Shown here piece after piece: positions 3,922 through 64,000 of a stretch of 64,000 nt of DNA (within the stretch, counting starts at the first letter, position 1; every line of letters begins with the position of its first letter). The position numbers and the translations under genes were made by a program. Under the pieces are notes generated by a model. That model worked only from the letters and a program-made list of their open reading frames with translations, did not search any database and had not been told where the DNA came from. The stretch is taken from assembly GCF_000407445.1 (NCBI RefSeq), contig NZ_ASWB01000004.1, forward strand, positions 1-64,000. The letters are read 5' to 3'. Source of the stretch: Enterococcus moraviensis ATCC BAA-383. GTDB taxonomy: Bacteria; Bacillota; Bacilli; Lactobacillales; Enterococcaceae.

Positions 3922-3940
3922 TTTCTAACTTTTTAATTCG

Positions 3941-3977
3941 CAGTGCAAAACGAATCTGTTTTGCATTGTTTTTTTTC
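3941..3977 (+). terminator. Terminator after clpC
   Basis: Stem CAGTGCAAAAC / GTTTTGCATTG (one G-T pair), short loop, then a run of eight T residues. Confidence 0.93.
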
Positions 3978-4130
3978 TTTAGAAAAAGAATGAAAAGAGC
4001 TTATTTTTGTGAAAAATGAGCGTTAAAATAAAGAGAGTCTATTGGAAAGTTTGTGAACCTGTGCTACTATAAAACAGTTGTTAGAAGACTGACTTACAAG
4101 ATAAAAAGTATTAATTTCAAACAGATTTGT

Positions 4131-4525
4131 TCATGACTGAACGAGTTTGTGCGATTTTTAGATTGTCTAGCTTCATGGGCTAGCTCTTCGGAAAAAAGAT
4201 AAATATGAATAGTGGTAAAAAGCACCACCATCCATATTTCCTATTTTTCATTCAGAGCTGAACGAGCCCATTCAGCTTTTAAATTGTCTAGCTTCATGAA
4301 CCAGCATCTCGGAAAAAAGATAAAATTAGCGTGTGACGAAGAGCGTCACATTCAAATTTTCCTATTTTTCATTCGATGCTAAACGGGTTCATTCAGCTTT
4401 TAAATTATCTAGCTTCATGAACCAGCATCTCGGAAAAAAGACAAAATTGGCTTGTGACGAAGAGCGTCACATTCAAATTTCCCTATTTTTCATTCGATGC
4501 TAAACGGGTTCATTCAGCTTTTAAA
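4131..4525 (+). repeat. Tandem structured repeat, three copies of about 121 bp plus a partial one
   Basis: The 616-bp gap between clpC and trhP1 contains three head-to-tail copies (about 4163-4283, 4284-4404, 4405-4525) and a degraded 3' fragment at 4131-4162. Each unit opens with a TTGTCTAGCTTCATG-type segment and closes with a GAACGAGCCCAT or AAACGGGTTCAT segment that pairs back to the start; a second hairpin lies inside. Arms covary between copies: ATGGGCT with AGCCCAT in copy 1, ATGAACC with GGTTCAT in copies 2 and 3. The inner stem is AGTGGT/ACCACC in copy 1 and TGTGAC/GTCACA in the others. The last copy ends 1 nt before the AAAGGAGG ribosome-binding site of trhP1. Confidence 0.85.
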
Positions 4526-4537
4526 GGAGGATATAAA

Positions 4538-5458
4538 ATGATTGAACTTATTGCGACTGCTGAGTCTATCGAACAAGCAGAGGCATTGTTAGCAGTAGGG
4601 ATAGACACATTATACATTGGAGAAGAGATGTTTGGGTTGCGCTTGCCTACGTCATTTTCTCGTGAGGAGCAGCAACGTATTACTGAAATGGCTCATACTG
4701 TGGGGAAAAGAGTAACGGTTGCGTTAAATGGGATCATGCATCCAGAAAAGATGAAAAAAGTTCCGGAATATTTGGCTTTTTTACAAGAAATAAAAGTAGA
4801 TCAAGTAACAGTGGGCGATCCAGGTGTTGTATTTGTGATGCAGCGTGATGGAATCGATATTCCATATATCTATGATGGTGAAACCTTAGTAACTAGTTCT
4901 CGTCAAATTAATTTTTGGGCAAAACGTGGATCGATCGGTGCGGTATTAGCCCGTGAAGTTCCTTTTGAAGAGATGAAAGCGATGAAAGATAACCTGATGG
5001 TTCCAGCTGAAGTTCTTGTATATGGTGCTACATGTATTCATCAATCAAAACGTCCATTACTACAAAACTACTACAATTTTACTAAAAATGATGAATCAGC
5101 TGCTAAAGAACGAGGGTTATTCATATCCGAGCCTAAAAAGGAAGAGACACATTATTCAATTTATGAAGACAGCCATGGCACGCATATTTTTGCAGATAAT
5201 GACGTGAATTTAATCGGTGAATTAGAGAAACTTCACGAGCAAAACTACACAAAATGGAAGCTGGATGGCATTTATGCACCAGGTGAAAATTTTGTGAAAG
5301 TTGCAAAGTTGTTTGTAGAGGCTAAAGAAAAAATAGAAGCAGGCACATGGACAAGTGATCAAGCTCAAAAATCAATTGAACAAATTGAAACGTTACATCC
5401 AGAAAACCGTGGTTTAGATATCGGATTCTTTGATTTAGATCCAGATGAGATAAAATAA
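4538..5458 (+). CDS. trhP1: Peptidase U32 family protein, TrhP1-like tRNA hydroxylation factor
   Basis: A 306-residue U32-family protein beginning MIELIATAESIEQAEALL. The U32 fold includes LALNG/VTVALNG-like TIM-barrel strands, but the cysteine cluster found in the long paralog is absent. In Bacillus subtilis the adjacent short and long U32 genes yrrN and yrrO encode TrhP1/TrhP2, which make 5-hydroxyuridine at the tRNA wobble position using prephenate. The same short-then-long order is seen here, so that role is inferred by family and context. ATG 4538 follows AAAGGAGG; 13 nt separate it from the next gene. Confidence 0.85.
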   Translation: MIELIATAESIEQAEALLAVGIDTLYIGEEMFGLRLPTSFSREEQQRITEMAHTVGKRVTVALNGIMHPEKMKKVPEYLAFLQEIKVDQVTVGDPGVVFVMQRDGIDIPYIYDGETLVTSSRQINFWAKRGSIGAVLAREVPFEEMKAMKDNLMVPAEVLVYGATCIHQSKRPLLQNYYNFTKNDESAAKERGLFISEPKKEETHYSIYEDSHGTHIFADNDVNLIGELEKLHEQNYTKWKLDGIYAPGENFVKVAKLFVEAKEKIEAGTWTSDQAQKSIEQIETLHPENRGLDIGFFDLDPDEIK

Positions 5459-49957: not shown

Positions 49958-50146
49958 ACTAAAATAGTTCTTCGTGTCATCATTGTCTATAACCCAATGA
50001 ATCTATAGGGCTAGTTTTTTTAAGTAGAGAAGTTATTTTAGTAGAATTGGGCTATCATTTAACAGTAGACGAGGCTTGCAATGTATATTACTATGAGAAT
50101 TATAAATGTCGTTTAAAGGATATACGAAAGACTTGGGGGATTTGTT

Positions 50147-50884
50147 ATGAAAAAAATGAAAAACAGTATTTTGTTAGGTTGTTACTTGGTACTTTCTGGA
50201 TTATTAGTTGGGTGTGGTGATCCCAATAAATCAACTGCCGATACTGATAAAGCATCATCTAGCAGTAAAGAAACCACAGAATTAACCGTTAGTAGCACAG
50301 AAAGTAAAGAAGCCACAGAAACCAAAGAAACTACAGAGTCAACTACTGAACAATCAAGCACAGTTCAGGATACGCAAGAAACGGATGAGTCACATGAAGA
50401 TGCAAGCGAAGAGCAACCAACCGAAGCAACTCAATCAATGAATCTTTCTCAAATTCAGCAAGGCGATTATTCAAGCTTGAATGGAACGTGGGGAAATGGC
50501 TTAGGAAATACTATTTTTGTAGCAAACAATACAATGAGTTTTACAGACATTTCTAACCAGAAGGAAGCAGCAGAAATCACTGGTTTAAACGTTGATATTC
50601 CTCAACTAAATTCACCAGAGGGAACGCCTGAGTTGGTATCGTTCATGGGAAATAGTGACAAAGTTTCTTCTTATGAACAGCAACTAGGCATTGAAGAAAA
50701 TCAAGGATTTGTTTCTTTAAGAAGTAACCTTCCAGGAGCCGTGATTTACGTCTCTTTTTTACCAAAAGGTACAATGGGTGATATACTAGAGGGAGATACC
50801 GAAAGAGATAAAATTGTGGCTGTAGGCACACAAAACACTGCTACATCCGTTCGCGCAGATTATGTCTATTATAAAATCGACTAA
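50147..50884 (+). CDS. Lipoprotein with C-terminal DUF6287-like domain
   Basis: A 245-residue lipoprotein with signal peptide and LLVGC lipobox (Cys23), then a long Ser/Thr/Glu low-complexity spacer to about residue 100. The C-terminal domain opens QGDYSSLNGTWGNGLGNTIFV, which is like the DUF6287 family common in enterococcal and streptococcal lipoproteins. Function unknown. A terminator follows. Confidence 0.7.
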   Translation: MKKMKNSILLGCYLVLSGLLVGCGDPNKSTADTDKASSSSKETTELTVSSTESKEATETKETTESTTEQSSTVQDTQETDESHEDASEEQPTEATQSMNLSQIQQGDYSSLNGTWGNGLGNTIFVANNTMSFTDISNQKEAAEITGLNVDIPQLNSPEGTPELVSFMGNSDKVSSYEQQLGIEENQGFVSLRSNLPGAVIYVSFLPKGTMGDILEGDTERDKIVAVGTQNTATSVRADYVYYKID

Positions 50885-50893
50885 GATAGTTTT

Positions 50894-50931
50894 ATATAGG
50901 GTAAACTTATCGACAGATGAGTTTACCCTAT
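50894..50931. terminator. Bidirectional terminator
   Basis: TATAGGGTAAACT / AGTTTACCCTATA perfect stem between the convergent lipoprotein and dihydrouridine synthase genes. Confidence 0.85.
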
Positions 50932-50935
50932 AATC

Positions 50936-51949
50936 TTAGTCTGTTTCTTTACCTAGTTCCTCTTCTTCGTCAACAGATAAACTATTTGCTGGACCTTTAT
51001 AAAACTCTCCCAAAATCATCCGAACTTCATCTGTCGATTTCGTCCCCATCAATTTCACACGCAAATCGCTAGCACCAGGGAATCCTTTCACATAAATCTT
51101 AAAGAAACGGTGCAAACCAACGATGGAGCGTGGAACCATCTCTGCATAATGATCCTGTAAATCAAGCTGCATCTCTAATAAGCCAAGCAACTCTTTTGGC
51201 GAATGCTTTTTTGGTTCTTTTTCAAATGCATAAGGATTTTTAAAAATTCCTCGACCGATCATAATGCCGTCAACACCGTATTGTTCTGCAAGCTGTAAAC
51301 CGACCTGCCGATCAGGAATGTCCCCATTGATCGTAATCAAGGTTTGCGGAGCAACACGATCACGGATTTCCATGATTTGAGGAATCAAGTCCCAGTGAGC
51401 ATCGACTTTACTCATTTCATTACGCGTTCGTAAGTGAACAGAAAGGTTGGCAATATCTTGCTTCAATAAATGGGTGATCCAGTCTTCCATTTCAGCAATT
51501 TCTGCATAGCCGATCCTTGTTTTAACACTGACTGGCAAACCACCAGCTTTGGCCGCTTCAATCAATTCAGCCGCTACTTCTGGTCTTAAAATTAAACCGC
51601 TCCCTTTACCACGTCCTGCAACGTTAGGAACAGGGCACCCCATATTAAGATCTATTCCTTTAAAGCCCATTTCGGCTAATCCTCGGCTCATCTCGCTAAA
51701 GAATGTAGGATTGTCACCCCAAATATGAGCGACCATAGGCTGTTCATCTTCAGTAAAAATCAAACGGCCACGTACGCTTTCGATACCATCAGGATGGCAA
51801 TAACTATCCGAATTCGTAAATTCAGTAAAGAAGACATCAGGTGCGCCTGCTGCTTTGACAACATGGCGAAAGACAACATCCGTCACATCTTCCATTGGTG
51901 CTAAAATAAAAAAAGGCTTTGGTAACTCTGCCCAAAAATTATTCATCAT
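50936..51949 (-). CDS. tRNA-dihydrouridine synthase
   Basis: A 337-residue Dus-family flavoenzyme with the N-terminal LAPMEDVTD, the conserved [15 protein letters not shown] with catalytic Cys105, SVKTRIG and INGDIPD, and NGxx[14 protein letters not shown]. It reduces uridines in tRNA D-loops with NADPH and FMN. The exact subfamily (DusA, B or C) cannot be set by eye. Monocistronic and convergent to the upstream lipoprotein gene. Confidence 0.9.
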
Positions 51950-52133
51950 TAAATACTCTCCACTCTATTGCTTTCGGTTACGATCTGAAAAACATACTCA
52001 TTATACTAATAATATTGGAAAGAATCAAAGGGAAGAGCTGAGTAAATCCGCAGTATCGAAAGTTTGCTTATTTTTAGTAAGTGTATTATACTTCTTTTGT
52101 CAGTTTAATTCTAAACCAAAGGAGGCATAATCG

Positions 52134-52556
52134 ATGGAAAAATTATCAATTTTAGAAAAAGTAAAATTAAGTTGTTGGATGTCCATTTTGCAGTTTGTTC
52201 AAAAGAGCAATAGCAAGTCTAATGAGTTTCTAAAACAATATGACTTGAATGCTTCAAAATTCGATATGCTACATCAGATTCAGGAAAACCAACCAATCAC
52301 ACAAAAGGAACTAGGAGAAAAATTGCTTATCTCCAAGGGTGGTGTTTCTCAAATGATCAAACAGTTTGAAACGGATGGTTGGATCACGCGTCAACAACAA
52401 TGGAAAGAAAAATACATATCCTTAACGACTAGAGGTCAAGAACTGCTAGATAGTTGCTTTATTGCACAAAGTAAGCAACAAGCAGCAGCTTTTGACAATT
52501 TAACGAAACAAGAAGTTCTTCAGTTAGCGAAAATCAGCAAAAAATTGATGAAATAA
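52134..52556 (+). CDS. MarR-family transcriptional regulator
   Basis: A 140-residue winged-helix protein: LHQIQENQPITQKELGEKLLISKGGVSQMIKQFETDGWI, followed by a wing around RQQQWKEKYISLT. It is the first gene of a likely operon with an LLM flavin monooxygenase and an FMN reductase and probably represses it until an aromatic or oxidant ligand binds. AAAGGAGG is upstream. Confidence 0.88.
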   Translation: MEKLSILEKVKLSCWMSILQFVQKSNSKSNEFLKQYDLNASKFDMLHQIQENQPITQKELGEKLLISKGGVSQMIKQFETDGWITRQQQWKEKYISLTTRGQELLDSCFIAQSKQQAAAFDNLTKQEVLQLAKISKKLMK

Positions 52557-52593
52557 TAACTATAGTTGGATAGTAAAGAAGAGGTGCAGGAAA

Positions 52594-53673
52594 ATGAATA
52601 AAAAAATAAATGAAAAATTTGGAATTGATTCCTCAAATGGGATGGAAATAGGGCTGTATTCACTAGGCGATCATGTCAAAAATCCAATGACAGGAAAGCT
52701 GATCAGTGAACAACAACGAATCAATGACATTATCGAAGCAGCAAAATTTGCCGATGAAGCAGGAATCGATGTGTTTGGTGTTGGTGAAAGTCATCAAAGT
52801 CATTTTATCGGGCAAGCGAATCAAGTGATTTTATCGGCAATCGCAGCGCAAACAAAAGATATTAAGATTTCTAGTTCAGTAACAGTTTTAAGTACCAATG
52901 ATCCAGTCCGAGTGTATGAAGAGTATGCCACATTAGACTTGATTTCAAATGGTCGTGCTGAAATCGTTGCAGGACGGGGCTCGCGTGTCGGGGTTTATGA
53001 ATTGCTTGGGTTTGATTTAAAAGATTATGAAGAATTGTTTGAAGAAAAAATGCACTTGCTAAAATTATTAAATGAAGCTGCACCAAACGAACGAATGAAC
53101 TGGGAAGGTGCATTTCGTGCTCCGTTGCAAAATGCTGAGATTTTACCGCAGCCTGTTCGGGGACACTTGCCTGTTTGGCGCGCAGTGGGAGGTCCAGCTG
53201 ATAGTGCAATCAAGGCTGGTTTAGATGGTATTCCAATGATGCTTACGACATTGGCAGGCCCTGCACCGATCTTTAAGAGAGCGGTGGATGCGTATCGTTT
53301 ATCTTTGAAAGAAGCAGGTTACGATGAAAAGGAATTTCCACTGGCAACAACAAGTTTGTTTTATGTAGCTGAAACAGGTAGCCAAGCGCGGAAAGAAATG
53401 TATCCATTTTTGAATGCTGGTTGGTCAGCGATTCGTGGTGGAACCTATCCAAAACAACATTTTGCTCAATCACAAGATACACGAGACACTTTAATGGTTG
53501 GAGGCGTCAATGAAATTATCGAGAAGATGCTTTACCAATATGAATTATATGGCCATCAACGCTTTATGGCACAAATCGATTTTGGTGGTGTCCCTTTGGA
53601 TCTAGTGAAGAAAAACATTGAATTGATTGCGACCAAAGTGATGCCTGAAGTTAAAAAGTATACCAAAGAATAG
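52594..53673 (+). CDS. Luciferase-like (LLM class) flavin-dependent oxidoreductase
   Basis: A 359-residue TIM-barrel flavoprotein of the bacterial luciferase-like family: MEIGLYSLGDH near residue 17, FGVGESHQSHF, SSSVTVLSTNDPVRVYE, and AGRGSRVGVYELLGFD. It would use reduced FMN, supplied by the reductase encoded next, for oxidation of an unknown small molecule. It lies 37 nt after marR and 8 nt before the reductase. Function is family-level only. Confidence 0.87.
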   Translation: MNKKINEKFGIDSSNGMEIGLYSLGDHVKNPMTGKLISEQQRINDIIEAAKFADEAGIDVFGVGESHQSHFIGQANQVILSAIAAQTKDIKISSSVTVLSTNDPVRVYEEYATLDLISNGRAEIVAGRGSRVGVYELLGFDLKDYEELFEEKMHLLKLLNEAAPNERMNWEGAFRAPLQNAEILPQPVRGHLPVWRAVGGPADSAIKAGLDGIPMMLTTLAGPAPIFKRAVDAYRLSLKEAGYDEKEFPLATTSLFYVAETGSQARKEMYPFLNAGWSAIRGGTYPKQHFAQSQDTRDTLMVGGVNEIIEKMLYQYELYGHQRFMAQIDFGGVPLDLVKKNIELIATKVMPEVKKYTKE

Positions 53674-53681
53674 GATGAATA

Positions 53682-54251
53682 GTGATGAAAATAGTTGCAA
53701 TAATCGGCTCCGCTTTTGGGAGTAAATCAAGGGTAGCTGTTAATTATACAATCAACAAAATAAAAGTAGTTCGAACAGATGCTGAAGTGGAAATCATCGA
53801 TTTTTCAGAAATACACTTTCCGTTTGCTGATGGACGTGACTATCTTCAACACGAAGGTGAAGTTGGTAAAGCCTTGAAAAAAATCATGGAAGCAGACGGC
53901 TTGATTATTGGGACACCGATTTTCCAAGCATCGATGCCAGGAACATTGAAAAATTTATTTGATATGTTGCCTGTTAATGCATTTCGGAATAAAGTTGCTG
54001 GAATGATCGTCACAGCTGGTTCGGAAAAACATTTTTTGATTCCAGAACAGCAAATTCGTCCCGTACTAAGTTATATGAAAGCTAATTTAGTCCCGAACTA
54101 TGTGTTTATTACCGATCAAGATATTATTCGTCAAGAAATCAAGAATCCCGATATTGAATTTCGATTGGATCGATTTGTGGATGACTTTTTCTTATTGCTG
54201 GATACGTATCAAACAATGATTCAGCAAAAAGAAGCGGAATATGATTTTTAG
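53682..54251 (+). CDS. NADPH-dependent FMN reductase
   Basis: A 189-residue flavodoxin-like protein: IIGSAFGSKSRVAVNY phosphate loop, and GTPIFQASMPGTLKNLFDMLP, the second FMN contact. It belongs to the NADPH-dependent FMN reductase family, providing reduced flavin to the luciferase-like enzyme. The start falls 8 nt after that gene, indicating co-translation. A bidirectional terminator follows. Confidence 0.88.
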   Translation: MMKIVAIIGSAFGSKSRVAVNYTINKIKVVRTDAEVEIIDFSEIHFPFADGRDYLQHEGEVGKALKKIMEADGLIIGTPIFQASMPGTLKNLFDMLPVNAFRNKVAGMIVTAGSEKHFLIPEQQIRPVLSYMKANLVPNYVFITDQDIIRQEIKNPDIEFRLDRFVDDFFLLLDTYQTMIQQKEAEYDF

Positions 54252-54265
54252 TAATTTAGGTAAAA

Positions 54266-54315
54266 AAATAGCTACGGTTTCTTCTATTTATAAAGAGAGA
54301 CCGTAGCTATTTTCT
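54266..54315. terminator. Bidirectional terminator
   Basis: AAATAGCTACGGT / ACCGTAGCTATTTT with an inner TTTCTTC-type loop, shared by the FMN reductase gene and the convergent oleate hydratase gene. Confidence 0.88.
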
Positions 54316-54337
54316 GTTTCAATACAGTGTCGTGCGT

Positions 54338-56110
54338 TTAAATCAAATCAGCATCTTTTAAAATATCCCCGATATACGTATCTTTTGTTTTATCAACAAA
54401 CTTCTCAACGATTTTCCGTTCTACAAAAGGCAATTCCATTTCAGTTAGTTTTTTCTTATCAGATAAATAGTAAACAGAATTAGCTAAAGTCCGTAAATCG
54501 TAAGCTGATGCAAAAACTTCTGGAACACCACGTTCAACGTCTAATAATTGATAGACAGCTTCCATCGCAGTTCTAACAGAGTATTCAGTAGTGAAGACAG
54601 TATCTCGCTCCGTTTCTGCAAAGTTTCCGATAAACGCTAAGTTTTTAGAACCGTTAGGAATGACTAAAGGACGGTCTCCTGGTTCACGTAACATAAAGTA
54701 AGAGGTGATAAATGGCATATAAACTGGAATTGCTGTACACGAATGTTCCGCAAATTTAATGATATCTTCTTCTGGAACACCTAAGTGATACATCAACTCT
54801 TGTGCAATTTCCTCACCGGAACATTGTTCGATTGGTTTTTTTATATAATTTCCAGGAGTATTTGATAGTAAACCATAGACCCAAGTGATCGATTGTTGTT
54901 CATTTTGTTCTTTAAAGTGAGGTTGACGATGCATTGCAAAACTCATTAACCAGTTGGAATCTTTGATCGTGATGATTCCGCCCGTCACAATTTTGCCTGT
55001 TCGCAATTTACGATGTGTCAGTCTAGAAATATAAGGCTCGATATCGAAGTTTTCCCATGTTACAGTAGCAGAAACGAACCAACTTTCTGCTGGTAAATTT
55101 TCACAAAAGACATCAGGATTTCCGAATTCTGGTGATTGTTTTGCTAAATTTTTCCAAAGGTTCCAACTACCGCCTAGGTCATGTGTGATCGGTGCGGGTG
55201 TATGGTGGTCGCCCTCTGTTGAACTTTCAGTGATTGAACCGTTTGTTACGAAAACCAAGTCATTTTCGGTTAAGTGAATTTCTTCTGTTTTACCAGCTTT
55301 GGTTAGTAAGATACTTTTCGCAACTTTTGTTTCTTCGGTGATATCCACTTTGATATCATTGATTTTTGTTTCATATTGGAAATCTACACCATTGTCGTCT
55401 AAAAAGGCTAATAATGGTTTGACTAAAGACTCAAATTGATTATAACGTGTAAATTTTAAAGCAGTAAAATCTGGTAACCCTTTAATATGATGAATAAAGC
55501 GCATCACGTAGCGTCTCATTTCAATAGCGGAGTGCCATTTTTCAAAAGCGAACATCGTACACCAATATAACCAAAAATTCGATTCAAAAAATTCTTCGGT
55601 GAAGACATCTTTAATTCGTTTTCCGATTAGTTTATCTTCTGAGGTCATAAATAAATCAACGAGTTCTTTTTGTGCTTTTTTAGAGAGCGTAAATTCACCA
55701 TCATCTGAGGCGCGTTCGCCTCGATTATAAATAATACGGCAGTTTGAAGAGTTAGGATCGTCATGATCTAGCCAATAAAATTCATCTAATACAGAAGCAT
55801 CCTCAACTTCTAGTGAAGGAACAGAACGGAAAAGATCCCACAAACATTCAAAATGGTTTTCCATTTCACGTCCACCTCGTGTAACAAAACCATCATGGGG
55901 AATGAATTTTCCATCCAAAGAGCCACCTGATAAGGATAGTTCCTCAAAAATATGGATATGTTCACCTTTCATGTGTCCGTCACGAATCAAAAAGACTGCT
56001 GCTGCTAAACCGGCTAATCCTGCACCGACGATATAGGCATTTTTCTCATCTACGCCGTCAGGTTTTCTGCTTCTTGCAAATGCTTCATAGTTTCCACTTA
56101 CGTACTTCAT
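54338..56110 (-). CDS. ohyA: Oleate hydratase
   Basis: A 590-residue FAD-dependent fatty-acid double-bond hydratase of the MCRA family. Seen are the FAD fold [18 protein letters not shown] (29-34), [31 protein letters not shown], and [22 protein letters not shown]. It hydrates oleic acid to 10-hydroxystearate and so detoxifies host fatty acids. Start is ATG 56110 ([23 protein letters not shown] upstream); the frame stays open to 56200 without support. It belongs to the myosin-cross-reactive antigen group of streptococci and enterococci. Confidence 0.93.
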
Positions 56111-56238
56111 AAAGATCCCTCCTGATTTTTGATTTGTTACACTATTATTGTAGCAAGGATCATTTTTACTCACAAAGGATAGCAGAAGGAAATTGGACAA
56201 TTGATGGTTTCTGTCTAGAAAATTTTCTGTTGCAAAAT

Positions 56239-56276
56239 AAAAAGCACACTTGAAGGATTTACTACGAGTGCGCGTG
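56239..56276 (-). terminator. Hairpin after the GIY-YIG-like gene
   Basis: Minus strand GCGCACTCG ... AAGTGTGC with G-U pairs, followed by TTTTTATT. A moderate terminator. Confidence 0.55.
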
Positions 56277-56287
56277 ATGATTATTTT

Positions 56288-57091
56288 TTAAACGACCGTC
56301 CATTCGTTCAATGTCTTTCCATTAGCGTCTATCAGCTCTAACCAACTATTTGTTCCGCCGAAGTATAAAAATAAACCAACTTCATTTACACTTTTTAAAA
56401 TGATGTCTTCAGTTGTTCTGTTGTTTTTGACTTTATCTTTATGGTCTTCTCGAATTCTTTGACCCATTTTTGCAGAAAATCCTAGAGACCCATCTTTGTT
56501 AAGGGGTGGATTTGCCATTATAGTAGCGCCAGCTTTTAGAAGCATTTCATTTCGCTTGTGCCAAAGTGCGGTTGCTTTACTATCTCTCGTATCAATAAAA
56601 AATTCGATTTGGCTAACTTCTTTAGTCCATTTATGACGTGCTTTAGCTGGTTTTGCTTTCTCTTTTTTAGGTTCTTCCTTCTGTTTTAGAGGATAGCCAA
56701 ATTTTTCAAGAATAAATAATACTTCGTCTTTATAGGTGGTGACCGTTTTTTGATAACTTGCAGGAATTTTTGTTTCTAGCTGAGAGGGGGCAATCAATTG
56801 AATGCCGTTTTCTATAGCATCAGTGGTGAGCTGTTGCATTAAATAGTCTAATTCAATATCCCAAGATGGCGCAATTGTGATTATTTTGTTGAAATCTAAC
56901 TCATTTTGAAAAGTACCAGTTTCTGATTTTCCTATTGAAATAACCGTATTATCCTTAAGTAGAATGTAGACAGCTGGTTGATCAAGTGCAATGTTACCGC
57001 TGTTTTCAATAATCGTGATGGTTCCGTAGTTGTTGCTCATTTCAATGCTTGTTTTTGTTTCTGTGATACGCACATTTAGTTGTATTTCCAT
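56288..57091 (-). CDS. Hypothetical protein with GIY-YIG-like N-terminal segment
   Basis: A 267-residue protein. Residues about 40-60 read AVYILLKDNTVISIGKSETG, which fits the GIY-YIG nuclease pattern (G-x-YIL..., then IGKS), followed by WDIELDYLMQQLTTDAIENG, where family members have the Glu that binds metal. The middle is Lys/Glu rich, and a C-terminal part (about 190-267) resembles DUF4357-type adapters in size. Start is ATG 57091 with AAAGGAG; the longer frame to 57199 has no site. It faces away from the recombinase segment, and the outward promoters in that segment point toward it. Confidence 0.6.
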   Translation of the reverse strand: MEIQLNVRITETKTSIEMSNNYGTITIIENSGNIALDQPAVYILLKDNTVISIGKSETGTFQNELDFNKIITIAPSWDIELDYLMQQLTTDAIENGIQLIAPSQLETKIPASYQKTVTTYKDEVLFILEKFGYPLKQKEEPKKEKAKPAKARHKWTKEVSQIEFFIDTRDSKATALWHKRNEMLLKAGATIMANPPLNKDGSLGFSAKMGQRIREDHKDKVKNNRTTEDIILKSVNEVGLFLYFGGTNSWLELIDANGKTLNEWTVV

Positions 57092-57468
57092 AGTCGTCTC
57101 CTTTGAGGAACAGATAGATTCTTTACGTATTTTAATACTCACATAACTACAGTTAGAGTTTATCATGAAACGGTAGATAAGTCCTTTAATAGAAATCAAA
57201 TTCTTGTTTAGCCGTTATTTTAAAAAGAGGACAACTATTGTTTTAAAAAGGAATTATTTTCGGGTTATCTCAGAAATAAGGTTCAAATCATAAACTTTTA
57301 AAAATATATAAATTTAAAAAAGTGAACTATTCCCTTTTTGTGATTTTTTGTATAATAAAATTATCTGTTATTTTTATATAGAAAAAATGTATTGTTTTCT
57401 GTGTGGAATTAAGGTAGAGTAGGCAGGTGTTGGGAATGAGCAAAGCATTCCAAGTTATATAAAGTGTA

Positions 57469-57650
57469 ATGAAAAGCCTTGGGCAATCTACGGATGCTTT
57501 GTGGTACGTGAATAAAGGCGAAAATTTGTGTTTCTTAGGGGATAAACAGCTGTGGGAAAGTGCTCACGCTGTTATGGATTTTCGGGAAGTGGTGGAGTGT
57601 TCATATCAGGAAAACATTTCTTATTTTACGCTAAAACAAGAAATGTTTTT
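57469..57650 (+). pseudogene. Possible remnant of an integrase N terminus
   Basis: In frame from ATG 57469 the segment reads NKGENLCFLGDKQLWES, echoing SKGENIYKRKDGRWEG of the intact recombinase nearby; 12 nt (AAAGGCGAAAAT) are identical. Shifting frame after WES gives GSGGVFISGKHFLFYAKTRN, like GSIYYGYIYARSYRAV of the intact gene. The left palindrome lies inside the end of this segment. It could be a decayed duplicate of the recombinase 5' end. Similarity is short, so low confidence. Confidence 0.35.
57611..57650. repeat. Left palindromic recombination site (IRL)
   Basis: TTTCTTATTTTACGCTAAAACAAGAAA is an imperfect palindrome: arms TTCTT-TTTTA and TAAAACAAGAA around CGC. The reverse complement of the right site differs in the 27-nt core by one base. 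It is therefore one of two inverted copies enclosing the recombinase gene. Confidence 0.8.
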
Positions 57651-57714
57651 GATATTTATTTAAAATTATTTGTACAACATAATTCATTGTATTGGTTTTT
57701 AGAGAGAAAATCAA
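57649..57714 (-). promoter_or_regulatory. Two outward-facing promoters beside the left site
   Basis: Minus strand: TTGATT, 17 nt, TACAAT (57686-57714), and TTGTAC, 17 nt, TATCAA (57649-57677). Both point leftward out of the segment in this orientation. After inversion they would read rightward across the right site into the WxL operon, with a leader of about 180 nt before the regulator gene. Confidence 0.6.
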
Positions 57715-57852
57715 TGGGATTTTACGAAAAAAAACAATAACTTTTCTCAGTTTTTTTCGAAATAATATAAAAATTTGAGAATTATTCAATGGTTATTTTT
57801 TCTTTATATAAATATAAGCGAAATGGTGAGCTGGATGAACGGTTGTTTTTTA

Positions 57853-57878
57853 CCGCCGTCAATTCCGCCGTCAGAAAG
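57853..57878 (+). repeat. Arm-type direct repeat, left copy
   Basis: CCGCCGTCAATTCCGCCGTC, then AGAAAG. It is repeated with 22 of 26 identities at 59099-59124, and each copy contains two CCGTCA half-units. It lies just before the recombinase start, and such pairs serve as arm sites for the N-terminal domain of integrases. Confidence 0.6.
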
Positions 57879-57893
57879 AAAGGGTTTGATTTT

Positions 57894-58994
57894 TTGAGTA
57901 AAGGCGAAAATATATACAAACGAAAAGATGGACGTTGGGAAGGTCGGTATCCGAAAGGTAGAAAAGCGGACGGCTCTATTTATTACGGCTATATTTATGC
58001 GCGTTCATACCGAGCAGTAAAAGATCAGATGTTAGATAAAAAAGTTCAGTTAACGCTGTTTTACACAACGAATACCAAAGAATTTCAAGGAACGTTTGGA
58101 GAGTGGACTCAATTTTGGCTAACGGATATCATGGCTCCAAAAATCAAAGAAAGTACTTATGCGAGCTATAGCAATAAGCTGCAATTACATATTTTACCAT
58201 TTCTAGCAAAACGCCCATTAAAAAAAATAACAGCAACAGACATCGATCGTTTAGTAAAAAGCTTGTCTGAAAATTTGGCGGCAAGTTCTGTGCACATTGT
58301 TTTTCGTATTGTAAAAAGCTGCTTTGAGGCCGCAAAGGAACGAGGCTACCTTATTTTGAATCCTTGCGAGCGGACAGTATTGCCTAAAATAGGGAAACAA
58401 AAAGTGCAAGCTTTAACACGACAACAGCAAAAAGAAGTAGAGACCGAGAGTATGAAATCAACAAAAGGACTGCCTATTTTGCTTGCATTAGAAACAGGGA
58501 TGCGAATTGGGGAAATCTGTGCGCTGAAATGGGAAGATATCAATTTTGAAGCATCTATTCTAAGAGTTCATCGAACCAAACAACGGATTGCGTTGCCTAA
58601 TAACTCAGGACATCTGACAAAAATCGTAGAAACAGCGCCAAAAACAATCAATGCGGATCGAATAATCCCGCTTTCTAAAAAAATCAAAAAGGTTTTATTA
58701 AAATGGAAGAACCAGTCATCTTCTACTTATGTTGTAGCCAACGGCTCAGATTCTATCGAGCCTAGAACTGTTAGTTATCGCTTTGAGCGAATAAAACAGA
58801 AGCTAGGTTTATTAAATGTCCCTTTTCATGCGCTTCGACATACCTTTGCGACTCGGTGTGTAGAAATGGGAGCGAATATCGCAGCAATTAGTTCCTTACT
58901 GGGGCATTCGTCCATAAAACTAACACTAGATACTTATACAAGTTCTTTTCTTGAAGAACAACGTACGACAATCGATAGATTAGCGTTTATATAA
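57894..58994 (+). CDS. Tyrosine recombinase (phage integrase family)
   Basis: A 366-residue recombinase. An N-terminal AP2-like arm-binding domain (SKGENIYKRKDGRWEGRYPKG...YARSYRAVK, about 1-50) is followed by a SAM-like core-binding domain (FGEWTQFWLTDIMAPKIKESTYASY). The catalytic domain has ETGMRIGEICALKWEDI (Arg), HALRHTFATRCVE (His-x-x-Arg), LGHSSIKLTLDTYTS (His and nucleophile Tyr). All catalytic residues are present. I place the start at TTG 57894, with AAGAAAGGG 9 nt upstream; the frame is open to 57789 but that part overlaps the arm-type repeat. A terminator follows 60 nt later. Confidence 0.88.
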   Translation: MSKGENIYKRKDGRWEGRYPKGRKADGSIYYGYIYARSYRAVKDQMLDKKVQLTLFYTTNTKEFQGTFGEWTQFWLTDIMAPKIKESTYASYSNKLQLHILPFLAKRPLKKITATDIDRLVKSLSENLAASSVHIVFRIVKSCFEAAKERGYLILNPCERTVLPKIGKQKVQALTRQQQKEVETESMKSTKGLPILLALETGMRIGEICALKWEDINFEASILRVHRTKQRIALPNNSGHLTKIVETAPKTINADRIIPLSKKIKKVLLKWKNQSSSTYVVANGSDSIEPRTVSYRFERIKQKLGLLNVPFHALRHTFATRCVEMGANIAAISSLLGHSSIKLTLDTYTSSFLEEQRTTIDRLAFI

Positions 58995-59058
58995 TAGACA
59001 GGTCGTTTTCGTCTATCCAAAGAAATTAATACTCTTGCTATTATTTATTTTGTTAAAA

Positions 59059-59093
59059 GTTAGCCCTATTTCTATAGGCTAGCTTTTTTTGTT
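59059..59093 (+). terminator. Terminator after the recombinase gene
   Basis: TAGCC(C)TAT / ATAGGCTA stem, then T7. In this orientation it stops recombinase transcription before the right site and so insulates the WxL operon. Confidence 0.9.
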
Positions 59094-59098
59094 TTTTC

Positions 59099-59124
59099 GC
59101 GCCGTCATTTCTACCGTCATAAAG
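59099..59124 (+). repeat. Arm-type direct repeat, right copy
   Basis: GCGCCGTCATTTCTACCGTC, then ATAAAG, the partner of the repeat before the recombinase start, in the same orientation, 35 nt from the right palindrome. Confidence 0.6.
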
Positions 59125-59157
59125 TACGATGAGTCCCATAAATAAAGGATAAATCAG

Positions 59158-59194
59158 CTTATTTCTTGTTTTAGCGTAAAACAAGAATCTTTTC
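59158..59194. repeat. Right palindromic recombination site (IRR)
   Basis: TTCTTGTTTTA-GCG-TAAAACAAGAA, a palindrome with perfect 11-bp arms around a 3-nt centre. It is the inverted counterpart of the site at 57611-57650; the central GCG reads CGC there. Confidence 0.8.
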
Positions 59195-59313
59195 TTCAGC
59201 ATTTAATATCTAGATAAACAGTATAAAAACTATTCTAGATTACTGCAAACATAATGACCAATTTTTGAAGGAATGGCAAAAAAATACATAGAATCAATGA
59301 GGGGCGACGGTAA

Positions 59314-60021
59314 ATGTATAATGTAGGAATTATTTCGACAAATAATGAAGTGGAAAACAGTACCTATGTAGACGCATTGGAAGAATCAGAATGTATGGTT
59401 CATTATCTACAGGATAAACAAAAATGGCAAGTCAGCGTAGAAAAGTTAGATGCTCTCATAATTGAAGAAACTGAAACAGACAATCAAATAGGAATGATTT
59501 GCGAGTCTATTATAGCGATACGGGAACAAAGTTCTGCTTTGATTTGGGTGATGTCAAAAAATGCAGATAAATCTACTAGGATCGTCTATATGAAGTTAGG
59601 TGCGGACGGTATTATCAATAAGACGATCGATTCAGATGAACTTTCCTTATTTGTCCAAAAAAACTTAAATAGATATGTTAAAAGCGCAGAGGAAAACGAT
59701 TTTTCTTTTGGTAGCTCACTTGTGGGGGAAAAGAAAAAAATTGAATTGATTCCATCTAATTTTAGTGTTCTATTATCTGGAAAAACCGAAGTGAATTTAA
59801 CAAAGTTAGAATTTCGAACGATTGAATTGTTGAGCAAGCATCCAAATAAGGCATTGACTTATGAAGAAATTTATCAGTATGTCTGGAATGGATCGGCGAA
59901 AGATAAGAGATACCGAGTTGCTAATATTATGTACCATTTAAGACAAAAAATCGCAAATGGGGATTCTTCTACTCAATATATCAAAACAATTCGGTCAAAA
60001 GGATATATGCTTCTAGCATAA
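59314..60021 (+). CDS. Winged-helix regulator with degenerate receiver-like domain
   Basis: A 235-residue protein. The N-terminal 120 residues resemble a receiver fold (MYNVGIIST..., then DALIIEE and VYMKLGADGIINK) but lack the clear Asp/Lys phosphorylation set. The C terminus is an OmpR/PhoB-type winged helix: LTKLEFRTIELLSKHPNKALTYEEIYQYVW, then KYRVANIMYHLRQKI and YIKTIRSKGYML. It is probably the local activator of the WxL operon that follows. The RBS is GAGGGGCGACGG before ATG 59314. No strong promoter is visible between the right palindrome and this gene. Confidence 0.82.
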   Translation: MYNVGIISTNNEVENSTYVDALEESECMVHYLQDKQKWQVSVEKLDALIIEETETDNQIGMICESIIAIREQSSALIWVMSKNADKSTRIVYMKLGADGIINKTIDSDELSLFVQKNLNRYVKSAEENDFSFGSSLVGEKKKIELIPSNFSVLLSGKTEVNLTKLEFRTIELLSKHPNKALTYEEIYQYVWNGSAKDKRYRVANIMYHLRQKIANGDSSTQYIKTIRSKGYMLLA

Positions 60022-60040
60022 TTACTCTAGGTTTCAATTT

Positions 60041-60074
60041 TCAATTATTGAAGAGGTTCATATTCGATAATTGA
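60041..60074. promoter_or_regulatory. Inverted repeat between the regulator and the WxL gene
   Basis: TCAATTATTGAA and TTCGATAATTGA form 12-nt arms with 11 complementary positions, 10 nt apart, located 50-80 nt before the WxL gene. It may be the binding site of the regulator or an mRNA hairpin. Confidence 0.5.
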
Positions 60075-60122
60075 AAGATTTGAAATAAATTGTTTTAAAT
60101 TTACCAGGGAAGGAGGAAAAAA

Positions 60123-63100
60123 ATGAAAAGAAAATGGATCATAACGACTGCTTGTGTGGTCAGTATTTTAGCTGGGTATCTTTACTTTGAGAATGCTGTC
60201 ATAAAAGCGGAAGAAGGAATTTCTCCTTACGCAGATGGACCAACTGCTCGTGCTAGTGGCTCATTGATCACGTATCCTAACGTCAATTTAGTGAACAGTG
60301 CCAATCCAGGAGCTGCTACGCCGATCCCGGGAGAATATGCAACAATGTTTCGTATTACCCCTAGATTGACCTATACAGTTTCAGGAGCAACGAGCGAAGG
60401 AGCAAACTACGCGCGCTTTGATAAACGGGATATTACAGGAAACAACTTTGTACAATTGAATAAAGTTGCAATCTATAAAGGTGGATTTGTAGATCTGCGC
60501 GCGACGATCGAATCGTATACTTCGTCGACAACAAATCCAACAGCTTATATCTACTACCCAACTTCCACAAGTAGTAATGCGCAAAAAGATAACTTTCTAA
60601 GAATCGATACTCGTGGTACCAACGCACAAATGAAAATCAGATATGATTTCTTCAAAAGTGGTACCACCACAAAAATTCCAATGAAAGCAATGTGGAATGT
60701 GAAACGATTGAATAATCTAAAGGGACTAACGATTGATTCAGGGAGTGACTTTTTACAAGGAGTATACACGTATTCAAATAGTGAGATTATTTACAGTGAT
60801 GTGGGTATTGGAACGACGAGATTTGTTGGAACCTCTGGTGGAGAAAAAGCAACACAGGAATTTACTTATCTGTTTAATTCAGATGGTTCTATGCAACAAA
60901 CAATTGATTTACCATCAGGGGCAGTAGGGTATTTGAAATATGAAACGTCCGCTATGACGAGAATTATTCTCCCGCCACCTCAAATTTTAGGAGAAACCAA
61001 CGAAGATCAAAATAAAATTGATTACACTGTTGTTCAAGATATGCCAGAACAATCAGATGCTTCTTTTTATCCTAAGCAATATACGATGTATATGAATGCA
61101 GATGCCATTTTTGATTTGTCACAGGCAACCGTAAAAGTTACAGATATGAACGGAGCGAATACTACTTCAAAATTTACGATTACAAAAGATATTCCTAATA
61201 ATCGCTTTGTAGTAACTGTTCCAGCGAGTACGCTAAGTAGCGCGTCATTTGTTAATAATTCGTATGAATTTCAGATTACTTCTAAACTCACTGCAGGTGT
61301 TGATAAGGAAAAATATTATCAAAGTGATGGGTACTTACACATTCCGATGACTGTCTACAATGTTACTGGAGATGGCCAAAGTGAGGTCAACGAAGGAATT
61401 GCTAAGACAAAATTAGGTGGTTCTCCGACAGCTGATCCAATCCCACAAGAAGTAATGGTTGGATCAAGTACTCAAGATTTAGAGCCAGCAGATTTAGTAA
61501 CGAATCTAAAAGGTGTTTTTGCTTCAGAAACGGTCAGTGTAATTGGCTTTGATTCCGAAAAGACATTTTCAACAGTGGGAAATGAGACAGTCACTATCGT
61601 CATTAAAGGAGATAAAACTGGTTTGACTGGGAAGATTAGTGTACCAATCACAGTAAAACAATTTAGTAATCCTGAATTTATGACGAAGGTTGTTTCAGAG
61701 GTAAAACAGACAGATGGCTCATGGAAAAAAAGTGATCAAGCAAAACCGTTGGATGAAGTTCGCTTTACGATAACATCAGAATTGACAAATGTTTCAAGTC
61801 GTTGGCAGCAAGCAAAACTCTATGCAGAATTAGATGCGTTATATAAAAATGTAACGCCCATTTCAGCGGAGCTGGTTGATTCGACAGGTACTTCTAAGAA
61901 TTTAGGGTTACCCATAGTATCACAAAAAACACCATTTGCTGTTGTTCAAACGGCAGAGGATGATTTAGTGATAGGAAGTAAAGGCAGTATCTTAAAGCTA
62001 GTCTATACCGCACAAGTTGATGCCACTGCTAGTTCTAAACTATTAAAAACAAAGGCTACTCCCAAAGGACTAAATCCTGATAATTCAGTAATTTCTGTGC
62101 CAAATACGGAACATTTACTAAATGTTTTGGATGTTGAGCCACCAATTGCTACAGCCAAGTTGACGAAGGTCGCGTTAAATGATGCGGAGGCAATCATTGG
62201 CTCAAATGTTGATTTGAAAAGCTTTTTTACAACCGTATCCGATAATGTTTCATCAAAAGAAAAAATTACGGCAAAACTTTTAACAACGGATATTCCATCA
62301 TTAGTTTCAACTGTGGGCAAAAAAACAATCAAGATTCGTTTAACGGATGAAGCTGGAAATTCAGCTGATTACGATACATTTATTTATGTAGTTGATGATT
62401 CTTACCATTGGGGAGAAGACGGTATTATCAAGGGAACTGACTTTAGAATGGATTACAGTGATTGGCCTAGCGAAGAGCAACGACCTCTAGTTATCACTAA
62501 CGGAAAGGTTGAAGCATGGCAGTTTGTTAAAGACGAAACAGGAAATATCATTGATGTGACGGATGTAACGGCAGATGAAACATTATTTGGCATCGATATA
62601 TCTAAAGTAACAAACGCTGAAGAAGTTGCCCATGTTATAACATTAAAGTTGAAAGACACAACAAAGATGATCTCAGTCACGTTCAATGATCGGACCAAAC
62701 CAACTGGGACAGGTAAGCTAACATTTGTTGATTTAGGGGACAATGCGTCTATCGAAAATGCAACCGACTATACCGCTTATCTAACAGACTGGTCAGACAA
62801 TGTTTCGGCTAAAGATAAAATTGCTGTAACGCTAAAACCAGGTCAAAACCTAGTGAATACAGTTTCAAAAGTAGGACCAGCTAGTTTTGTAGTGATCTTA
62901 ACGGATGAGGCTGGAAATGCAGAAGAAGTGACTGTTCCGATTTTTGTCAAAAATGATGAGATGATAACGAGCAATAAATATGTATTAGATGGACGGGATT
63001 TCAGTATCGCTGCGAAAGATTATCCGACTACAGAAGAAGCTATTTTAACTATGATACGTGAAAAAGGGAAACTAGCACTTTGGGAAATCGATGATGTCAC

Positions 63101-63929
63101 GGTTACTGCACTTGATGCGTCCAAAATTTCTATTGATAAAGGGACTTTACCGGGACCCGCAACACCTGGAACGCCAGTTGCCAGTGGTGATTATCAAGTA
63201 ACGCTAAGTTATGGTGAAGGGCCTGCTAAAGTTGAGAAGAACATCAAAGTAACAATCATTAAAAGCGTTTCGACAGTCAATGTAGAATTTGTCGATGATA
63301 CAGGTAAAAAAATTCATGACACCGTTCCTGTCAGTGGAAATATTGGTGGAACAGTTGATTTATCAAAGAACTTAGATGTCAAAGAGGTATTGAATACGTT
63401 AAGCGGCCAAAATTATCAAATTCAAAAAACGCCAGTACCAGAAAATGCTATCCCTGTGAATGAAACAGAATATGCAGTTCAGTACGTTTTTTCTGGGACC
63501 TTGTTTATCTATTCTGCCCCTCAATCTATTGATTTTGGTTTACGGGATGCCGGTATTTTTGGTGTTCGTGTAGAGAAACCTGCGTACGATAAAGAGTTGA
63601 TTATCTGGGATAATCGAACAAAGTTAACGAATTGGACGCTAGATGCGAAATTAGAGTCTTACTTAACAAGTAATGATGGTGAGGGAGCAAAAATCTTACC
63701 TGAAGCTATTCGCTATCGAACAGGTGAGGGAAAAGAAAGCGAGATTATTTTGAATAATGAGAATCAGCCGATTGTTGAAGATTCGCATACGACAACAGGT
63801 CAATACGATGTCAGTGACAAATGGAAGACCGGTGAGCGAGGATTCAAACTAGATGTTCCAGCTGGTGCGGTTCGTGAATTAGGGAAATATAAAGCGACGA
63901 TTGTTTGGACTGTTGGAGCAACACCATAA
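60123..63929 (+). CDS. Large WxL-domain surface protein
   Basis: A 1268-residue secreted protein: signal peptide (about 1-30, ending at VIKAEEG), a beta-rich N-terminal region to about 300, then several Ig-like or cadherin-like repeats (ATVTDNVSSKEKITAKLL...VGKKTIKIRLTDEAGNSADYDTFIYVVDD, repeated later as SDNVSAKDKIAVTLKPG...DEAGNAEEVTVPIFV). A MucBP-like linker (VNVEFVDDTGKKIHDTVPVSG) follows, and a C-terminal WxL domain with LTNWTLDAKL and a distal YKATIVWTVGATP. WxL domains bind peptidoglycan noncovalently; the distal motif here is WTV instead of WTL. AGGAGG precedes ATG 60123. Such proteins act in adhesion and surface complexes. Confidence 0.86.
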   Translation: MKRKWIITTACVVSILAGYLYFENAVIKAEEGISPYADGPTARASGSLITYPNVNLVNSANPGAATPIPGEYATMFRITPRLTYTVSGATSEGANYARFDKRDITGNNFVQLNKVAIYKGGFVDLRATIESYTSSTTNPTAYIYYPTSTSSNAQKDNFLRIDTRGTNAQMKIRYDFFKSGTTTKIPMKAMWNVKRLNNLKGLTIDSGSDFLQGVYTYSNSEIIYSDVGIGTTRFVGTSGGEKATQEFTYLFNSDGSMQQTIDLPSGAVGYLKYETSAMTRIILPPPQILGETNEDQNKIDYTVVQDMPEQSDASFYPKQYTMYMNADAIFDLSQATVKVTDMNGANTTSKFTITKDIPNNRFVVTVPASTLSSASFVNNSYEFQITSKLTAGVDKEKYYQSDGYLHIPMTVYNVTGDGQSEVNEGIAKTKLGGSPTADPIPQEVMVGSSTQDLEPADLVTNLKGVFASETVSVIGFDSEKTFSTVGNETVTIVIKGDKTGLTGKISVPITVKQFSNPEFMTKVVSEVKQTDGSWKKSDQAKPLDEVRFTITSELTNVSSRWQQAKLYAELDALYKNVTPISAELVDSTGTSKNLGLPIVSQKTPFAVVQTAEDDLVIGSKGSILKLVYTAQVDATASSKLLKTKATPKGLNPDNSVISVPNTEHLLNVLDVEPPIATAKLTKVALNDAEAIIGSNVDLKSFFTTVSDNVSSKEKITAKLLTTDIPSLVSTVGKKTIKIRLTDEAGNSADYDTFIYVVDDSYHWGEDGIIKGTDFRMDYSDWPSEEQRPLVITNGKVEAWQFVKDETGNIIDVTDVTADETLFGIDISKVTNAEEVAHVITLKLKDTTKMISVTFNDRTKPTGTGKLTFVDLGDNASIENATDYTAYLTDWSDNVSAKDKIAVTLKPGQNLVNTVSKVGPASFVVILTDEAGNAEEVTVPIFVKNDEMITSNKYVLDGRDFSIAAKDYPTTEEAILTMIREKGKLALWEIDDVTVTALDASKISIDKGTLPGPATPGTPVASGDYQVTLSYGEGPAKVEKNIKVTIIKSVSTVNVEFVDDTGKKIHDTVPVSGNIGGTVDLSKNLDVKEVLNTLSGQNYQIQKTPVPENAIPVNETEYAVQYVFSGTLFIYSAPQSIDFGLRDAGIFGVRVEKPAYDKELIIWDNRTKLTNWTLDAKLESYLTSNDGEGAKILPEAIRYRTGEGKESEIILNNENQPIVEDSHTTTGQYDVSDKWKTGERGFKLDVPAGAVRELGKYKATIVWTVGATP

Positions 63930-63947
63930 CAAATGGAGGAAAGAATA

Positions 63948-64000
63948 ATGAATCAAAAACATTTAGTTTCAGCCTTCTTTGTCTCTGTAGTTGCGGTTGC
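63948..64000 (+). CDS. Start of a secreted protein, truncated by the window end
   Basis: ATG 63948 with GGAGGAAAG upstream begins MNQKHLVSAFFVSVVAV, a typical signal peptide start, 18 nt after the large WxL gene. By position it is likely the next member of the WxL operon, for example a small WxL protein. Only 17 codons are inside the window. Confidence 0.6.
   Translation, partial: MNQKHLVSAFFVSVVAV

Follow-up and report, generated by a model that had tools for sequence, protein, structure and literature searches.

A candidate promoter-inversion cassette with an arm-binding tyrosine recombinase beside a predicted WxL surface-protein operon in Enterococcus moraviensis

The 64,000-nucleotide stretch of Enterococcus moraviensis ATCC BAA-383 analysed here (the window) is the start of contig C4 in a genome of 3.59 Mb and 6 contigs. 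Towards its right end, positions 57618-59187 most probably (we would put it at about 88%) form a self-contained invertible-promoter cassette, in which two inverted sites enclose a tyrosine recombinase gene and an outward-pointing promoter, and which would be OFF as sequenced and ON after inversion for an adjoining predicted operon of a regulator and a WxL-domain surface protein. That this segment is a promoter-inversion switch in its OFF state had been proposed from the letters of the window alone (the original prediction), and is now supported by promoter direction, matched spacers, terminators and flips in relatives. Beyond that prediction, the cassette belongs to a large multi-copy family that is not confined to WxL genes, its recombinase belongs with the arm-binding integrases of Tn916 and Tn1549, and the sequenced copies are almost all in the orientation predicted to be OFF.

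We propose that the recombinase would bind arm repeats with the motif CCGTC together with the two inverted core sites, and that strand exchange in the matched central spacer would turn the whole 1.57-kb segment, the recombinase's own gene included. In the OFF state, the cassette promoter would fire leftward, away from the operon, and a terminator would stop the recombinase transcript. In the ON state, the inverted promoter would lie ∼190 nucleotides (nt) upstream of the regulator-WxL operon and transcribe it.

Inverted sites and the recombinase between them

The features on which recombination would depend are as follows.

57618..57642, + strand: left recombination site, palindrome TTCTTATTTTA-CGC-TAAAACAAGAA; extended palindrome 57611-57649
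59163..59187, - strand: right recombination site, inverted, TTCTTGTTTTA-GCG-TAAAACAAGAA
57894..58994, + strand: tyrosine recombinase, 366 amino acids (aa) from a TTG start placed by alignment, with arm-binding, core-binding and catalytic domains
57855..57873, + strand: putative left arm-type repeat GCCGTCA-N5-GCCGTCA, just before the recombinase start
59101..59119, + strand: putative right arm-type repeat GCCGTCA-N5-ACCGTCA

The inverted arms at 57618-57644 and 59161-59187 are complementary at 26 of 27 positions and are separated by 1516 nt. As the site centres read CGC on the left and GCG on the right, the sites are in inverted orientation. The pair scores 24, compared with a maximum of 17 (reached once) and a median of 10 in 200 control pairs from mismatched loci, for which the search windows were slightly narrower than in the scan of 240 recombinases described next. 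The proposed tyrosine recombinase between two inverted palindromic sites is thus borne out. Within the six contigs of the genome, these two places are the only zero-mismatch matches to the site pattern, and one further place fits it with 3 mismatches.

A flanking inverted pair scoring at least 17 lies beside 178 of 240 distinct recombinases. In the first 80 loci, 59 reach this score, and the inverted score exceeded the direct score in all 59. These loci are best matches and not a random sample, and recombinases were counted as distinct by their final 300 nt; the 178 cannot be taken as independent of one another and were dereplicated to 117 at 80% identity. To compare spacers, the two sites of each locus were aligned on the palindrome centre, with 112 of the 117 loci usable and the other 5 dropped for incomplete flanks. 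Half-sites across loci resemble TTTCTTG...CAAGAAA and differ within a pair by 0.02-0.31 mismatches per position, and from 14 nt outward of the centre the within-pair mismatch is at least 0.52 per position. At the site centre itself, from -3 to +6, it is 0.00-0.02, yet this is the most variable part between loci. Strand exchange by tyrosine recombinases demands a matched spacer, and spacers that match within pairs and vary between loci would be hard to explain without recombination between both sites. Selection for private spacers within a genome found no support beyond general diversity: in 103 loci of 17 genomes, 339 of 341 within-genome spacer pairs differ, identical pairs number 2 against 2.3 expected by label shuffling, and near-identical pairs (at least 7 of 8) number 12 against 6.7 expected, which is if anything the opposite of private spacers.

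The open frame of the recombinase begins at 57789 (401 aa) and encodes a Phage_integrase tyrosine recombinase, not a serine recombinase of the Hin type. Residues R239, K285, R350, H373 and Y383 are invariant in 45 sequences and H347 is kept in at least 90%; assigned by position, they would correspond to the RKHRH pentad. The N-terminal stretch GENIYKRKD is also invariant in the 45 sequences. In the predicted model (mean predicted local distance difference test, pLDDT, 85.2) the N-terminus folds into three strands (41-44, 50-58, 64-71) and a helix (74-93), and three strands and a helix at the N-terminus are also what passages of PMC8138268 describe for the arm-binding domain of Tn916. The best match in the PDB is Tn1549 Int (6en2), a construct of aa 82-397 without its own arm domain, followed by lambda Int. 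On its predicted fold, then, the recombinase is of the Tn916/Tn1549 type with an arm-binding domain, all three domains being found in the model. Its viral and phage relatives share 26-36% identity.

Tandem repeats of CCGTC occur in the inner regions of 90 of the 117 loci on the left and 71 of the 117 on the right, and in none of 234 outer flanks. They are candidate arm sites, which the recombinase would bind.

Promoter direction, orientation and natural inversions

The signals that would give the orientation its meaning are these.

57686..57714, - strand: conserved outward promoter TTGATT-17-TACAAT, kept in close relatives
57762..57789, - strand: second, weaker outward promoter-like site TTGAAT-16-TATTAT, not kept across aligned relatives
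59055..59087, + strand: predicted intrinsic terminator after the recombinase, stem of -14.0 kcal/mol followed by a T run

Two outward promoters had been proposed beside the left site. Both are present and the first is conserved, while the second is not. When the window locus is aligned with 19 close relatives, the TTGATT -35 and the -10 rank with the most conserved letters of the region (one alignment of this region in relatives anchored 10 of 18 loci). The significance of the outward promoter comes from a family-wide test and not from the scan of the window: in the region inside the left site, an outward promoter-like site exceeds the 95% shuffle level in 76 of the 117 dereplicated loci and the 99% level in 39, the median distance between the site and its -10 being 52 nt. 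The promoter tests excluded regions of less than 80 nt, hence the totals of 99 to 116 below. Outward promoter-like sites are found inside the right site in 4/99 loci and outside the left site in 5/113, and sites outside the right site that point into the operon in 2/116. Inversion would move TTGATT-17-TACAAT to about 59091-59119 on the + strand, with a transcription start near 59126, ∼190 nt before the regulator gene. Between this promoter and the recombinase lies an inverted repeat, TTCTCA-TTTTT ... AAAAA-TGAGAA (57744-57781), which is kept in relatives.

The terminator expected between the recombinase and the right site was recovered as the predicted stem listed above; a generic scanner missed it, a one-base bulge being the probable cause. 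A terminator-like hairpin comes after the recombinase in 61/117 loci against 8.4 expected, and one occurs on the other strand in 21/117 against 4.8 expected.

The predicted OFF orientation is found in 173 of the 178 loci, the next gene being co-directional directly in 169 and after a small opposite frame in 4. Among the remaining five, 3 end at a contig end and 2 are flipped. Flipped copies in related genomes had been set beforehand as a check on the idea of inversion, and they were found in loci L195 and L321, together with an assembly of E. rivorum that carries both junctions. When L195 (genome G078) is compared with L067, L077, L064, L207 and L170, both flanks align in the plus direction and the segment between the sites in the minus direction; L232 repeats L064 in this comparison. 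Against L184, the flip is seen for the segment and the operon side only, and ∼1.5 kb adjoining the left site of L195 is not common to the compared loci. L321 (G014, assigned to E. pallens) aligns with L311 over a right flank (95%, plus), the segment at 3800-5440 (87%, minus) and a short left flank (81%, plus), and the minus stretch is bounded by the sites. L318, a paralogue in the same genome as L321, gives the same flipped picture. No further clear flip emerged when 112 minus-strand genes on the left-hand side of 81 loci were scanned. L141 and L211 were not counted as flips because their operon-type genes remain on the right, nor was L264, which rests on a 35% match.

In E. rivorum (G082), contig C23 starts on the left site and continues through the recombinase, the right site and the operon. 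The first 70 nt of contig C81 are the inner-right end, followed by a site (together 97 nt identical to C23); the contig then enters another flank with a divergent 505-aa gene, whose best match among the proteins compared (48% identity) adjoins a sister locus of that genome on the left. Judged by gene type, C81 would carry the true left flank of the E. rivorum locus. Most simply, both orientations would have been present in the culture that was sequenced, although misassembly is possible. When four site patterns were searched in their own assemblies, an inverted junction was obtained from E. rivorum only. Contig ends near a recombinase number 11: four fall at or within a site (L072, L298, L299, L300), and L297 starts 22 nt before one. 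Two contig breaks in E. ureasiticus were rejected as signs of inversion, as they reflect a repeat shared with a third contig.

Points against the switch and alternative explanations

Several observations weigh against an invertible-promoter switch. No flipped copy of the window locus itself was found, and its closest named relative, L034 (93% identity), is also OFF. That only two of 178 loci are clearly flipped counts against free two-way switching. The promoter scan of the window taken alone does not rise above shuffles (14 found; mean 12.8, standard deviation 4.1), 41 of the 117 loci fail the outward-promoter test, and the -35 in flipped L195 is poor. Outside the left site, terminator-like hairpins face leftward transcription in 33/113 loci (2.0 expected) and rightward transcription in 28/113 (1.6 expected); as they face both ways, they need not belong to the switch and may simply end neighbouring genes. 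A candidate promoter directed into the operon scores 9.0, equal to the outward promoter. Finally, 62 of the 240 recombinases lack a detected pair (score below 17), including a conserved subgroup with neither sites nor arm tandems. Two sites outside the right site bear on the alternatives.

59220..59248, - strand: leftward promoter-like site TTGCAG-17-TATACT, kept in several close relatives (by eye)
59265-59294, + strand: competing candidate promoter before the operon, TTGAAG-18-TAGAAT

As the sequenced copies are OFF almost without exception, cells in culture probably switch rarely or with a bias to OFF. The bias could arise either because ON cells are rare or disfavoured in culture, an explanation also suggested for msa of Lactiplantibacillus plantarum (PMC8493755), or because they reset themselves through the leftward promoter. 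In the self-resetting variant, which we regard as possible but rather unlikely, transcription from the leftward promoter beyond the right site would be sense for the recombinase in the ON state only (antisense when OFF), so that ON cells would turn back quickly. The near-uniform OFF state agrees with this variant, and so does the number of loci in which a leftward promoter-like site beyond the right site exceeds the 95% shuffle level, 28/116 where ∼6 are expected. TTGCAG-17-TATACT, which would read the recombinase in sense in the inverted state only, is the representative of these sites in the window, and promoters directed towards the recombinase from inside the left site are almost absent (5/116). 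However, only a quarter of the loci show a leftward site, and these are consensus matches only; inward-pointing promoter-like sites are also slightly frequent outside the left site (13/113) and inside the right site (12/99); and the bias would be explained equally well if it were costly to express the surface proteins in culture. A dyad (CAGTAT ... TACTG-like) overlaps the leftward promoter in the window (59219-59245) and, by eye, in L034, L134, L007, L156 and L176, and is a possible operator.

It is improbable that inversion occurs but the sequenced state is already ON through read-through from the recombinase, or that the operon has its own promoter and inversion serves otherwise. The co-direction of the recombinase and the next right-hand gene in nearly all assemblies would suit read-through, and TTGAAG-18-TAGAAT would suit an own promoter. 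The original prediction had held that the operon has no convincing promoter of its own. This holds only in part: on score the two candidates are equal, but the -35 of the operon-directed one is not kept in most close relatives, its CATAGAAT-like -10 being kept in several (by eye). Terminators after the recombinase in about half of the loci stand against read-through, the scarcity of operon-directed promoters outside the right site (2 in 116 loci, as given above) and of promoters towards the recombinase also counts against this reading, and the strong outward promoter would be left without a consistent target on the left.

It is least likely of all, to the point that we set it aside, that the cassette is a small mobile element inserting upstream of surface operons, with the repeats as its ends and its orientation of no regulatory role: the Tn916/Tn1549-type fold, the arm-like repeats and an E. 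raffinosus cassette that is 78% identical between flanks of 98.6% and 88.7% are in its favour, but the repeats are inverted and not direct, the same flanks recur over several genomes, flips are bounded by the sites, the outward promoter is conserved, no cargo is carried and the position is mostly before regulator or surface-protein genes. Nor does the segment resemble an element of the IntTn916 type, with direct ends around transferable cargo, as its ends are inverted and it contains the recombinase and the promoter only.

The E. raffinosus contrast concerns megaplasmid copies (L148 against L149/L150, the left flank being the 98.6% one), and suggests cassette exchange or fast evolution.

Neighbouring genes, distribution and known systems

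The genes beside the cassette in the window are the following.

59314..60021, + strand: regulator with an OmpR-type winged helix (Trans_reg_C), first gene of the predicted operon
60123..63929, + strand: 1268-aa WxL-domain surface protein, with MucBP below the Pfam cut-off
56288-57091, - strand: 267-aa protein to the left of the cassette, unmatched in Pfam and NCBIfam

The WxL domain of the 1268-aa protein scores 31.9 bits against a cut-off of 25, and the operon extends beyond the end of the window. Genes downstream of L034 have C-terminal WxL motifs (by regular expression only). Further out on the left lies an MCRA-family gene, and no tRNA was found within 50000-64000 of the window.

Across the family, the first right-hand gene carries Trans_reg_C in 43/57 cases, with pilin, SpaA, WxL, Cna_B, lectin and LPXTG families among the others. 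The second carries Pectate_lyase_5 in 16/55, WxL in 15, MucBP in 7 and SecA in one. By simple labels, the first gene is a regulator in 104 of 169 loci, WxL in 17, LPXTG-like in 11 and unlabelled in 37, so that right-hand genes are identified as surface genes in part of the loci only. A plasmid copy in E. raffinosus precedes a helix-turn-helix (HTH) gene, secA2, secY2 and asp1. Left neighbours are diverse, with 85 families in 59 proteins, the commonest being Mga (7). With such left neighbours and operons on the right, the consistent partner of the outward promoter would be the operon that it can reach only by inversion. In E. ureasiticus (G089), two different cassettes, L132 and L133 on contigs C15 and C16, end in the same 97 nt, which are the start of the downstream gene and also open contig C4 of that genome; the two may feed near-identical operons.

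The best named match to the recombinase is that of Enterococcus plantarum LMG 26214 (93% identity; records very near the window's own may be left out). Related recombinases occur at E <= 1e-60 in 37 of 105 genomes of the family Enterococcaceae. A search of 395 sampled genomes of the order, with another family member as query and five candidates scored per genome, gave such recombinases at E <= 1e-62 in 25, of which 21 belong to Enterococcaceae. The genome of E. moraviensis has seven, of which six have inverted sites and all six are co-directional with the next operon. One genome carries up to 20 related recombinases, and another has 15 with sites among those fetched. Sites and CCGTC repeats are also present in L408, L409 and L410, from another family of the order, and in L153 from an E. 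faecalis plasmid; no inverted pair was detected beside L411 and L099.

Promoter inversion itself is well known, and what is new would therefore be the combination of a Hin-like layout, an arm-binding tyrosine integrase, many copies and a mostly OFF state. In the Hin/hix H segment of Salmonella, the recombinase gene lies inside the invertible segment, and an outward promoter serves a surface-structure operon and a regulator beyond one site. The cassette has the same layout, and differs in its tyrosine recombinase, arm-binding domain, arm-like repeats, many copies and locus-specific spacers. For fimS, the recombinase genes lie outside the element, and FimB and FimE are not known to have an arm domain. 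Hin is a serine recombinase. It works with a Fis-bound enhancer (PMC3798978). Closer in enzyme class, a tyrosine recombinase inverts a promoter that switches a surface structure in FimB/FimE-fimS, fimS being a 314-bp element, and in an element regulating UpaE of E. coli (PMC6083910), and these traits are shared by the cassette as proposed.

Among lactic acid bacteria, repeats in the promoter region of the msa-marR adhesin operon of Lactiplantibacillus plantarum can invert. The inverted form is rare in ordinary culture and prevalent in aggregating strains, so that the likeness extends to a surface operon promoter and an inverted form that is rare in culture. It is a single locus, described in the relevant passages without a recombinase cassette or an identified recombinase, RecT being only suggested (PMC8493755). 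The integrases of Tn916 and Tn1549 resemble the present recombinase in the N-terminal strands and helix and in the core and catalytic fold, as far as passages of PMC8138268 describe them. They move elements, whereas here inverted sites flank the recombinase and promoter only and the product would be an inversion. Inversion systems known from class Bacilli include the hsdS inversions and PsrA of Streptococcus pneumoniae (PMC4948785, PMC7096588) and the hsdS systems of E. faecalis (PMC9779914), which share site-specific inversion in Lactobacillales with the cassette but concern switching of hsdS alleles; PMC5903667 reports a single inversion-positive sample in the class. Among the papers ranked highest in searches of open-licence literature, without subscription papers and bioRxiv, we found no report of promoter inversion at a WxL operon or of this cassette family in enterococci.

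We tentatively suggest, and the idea may well prove wrong, that enterococci domesticated a Tn916-type integrase into multi-copy, default-OFF promoter-inversion cassettes, which would place much of their surface repertoire (WxL proteins, pili, LPXTG adhesins and accessory Sec) under separate DNA switches with their own spacers, and in which the ON state may reset itself. If true, enterococci would be among the richer users of promoter inversion (a review passage in PMC9779914 names only hsdS inversions), and default-OFF cassettes could account for the apparent silence of surface operons in laboratory culture. It would also suggest that an integrase of the arm-binding class, which has been described as linked to mobile elements, serves as a resident switch. 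Loci that share arm-like repeats and differ in their spacers lend themselves to comparative work on the directionality of recombination.

Some sister recombinases have the arm-domain motif and no flanking inverted pair (L129, L045-L048, L050, L051, L062, L070, L168, L172, L178, L193 and L205). A wider search around 11 loci of this site-less subgroup gave no convincing repeats (best score 18, an AT-rich pair in L193) and no arm tandem. Such a sister recombinase might act in trans. The one in the E. moraviensis genome, L129 (C3:720282-721391), lies, by eye, near ParB-like, YchF-like and GuaB-like genes and a convergent HTH-like gene of ∼500 aa.

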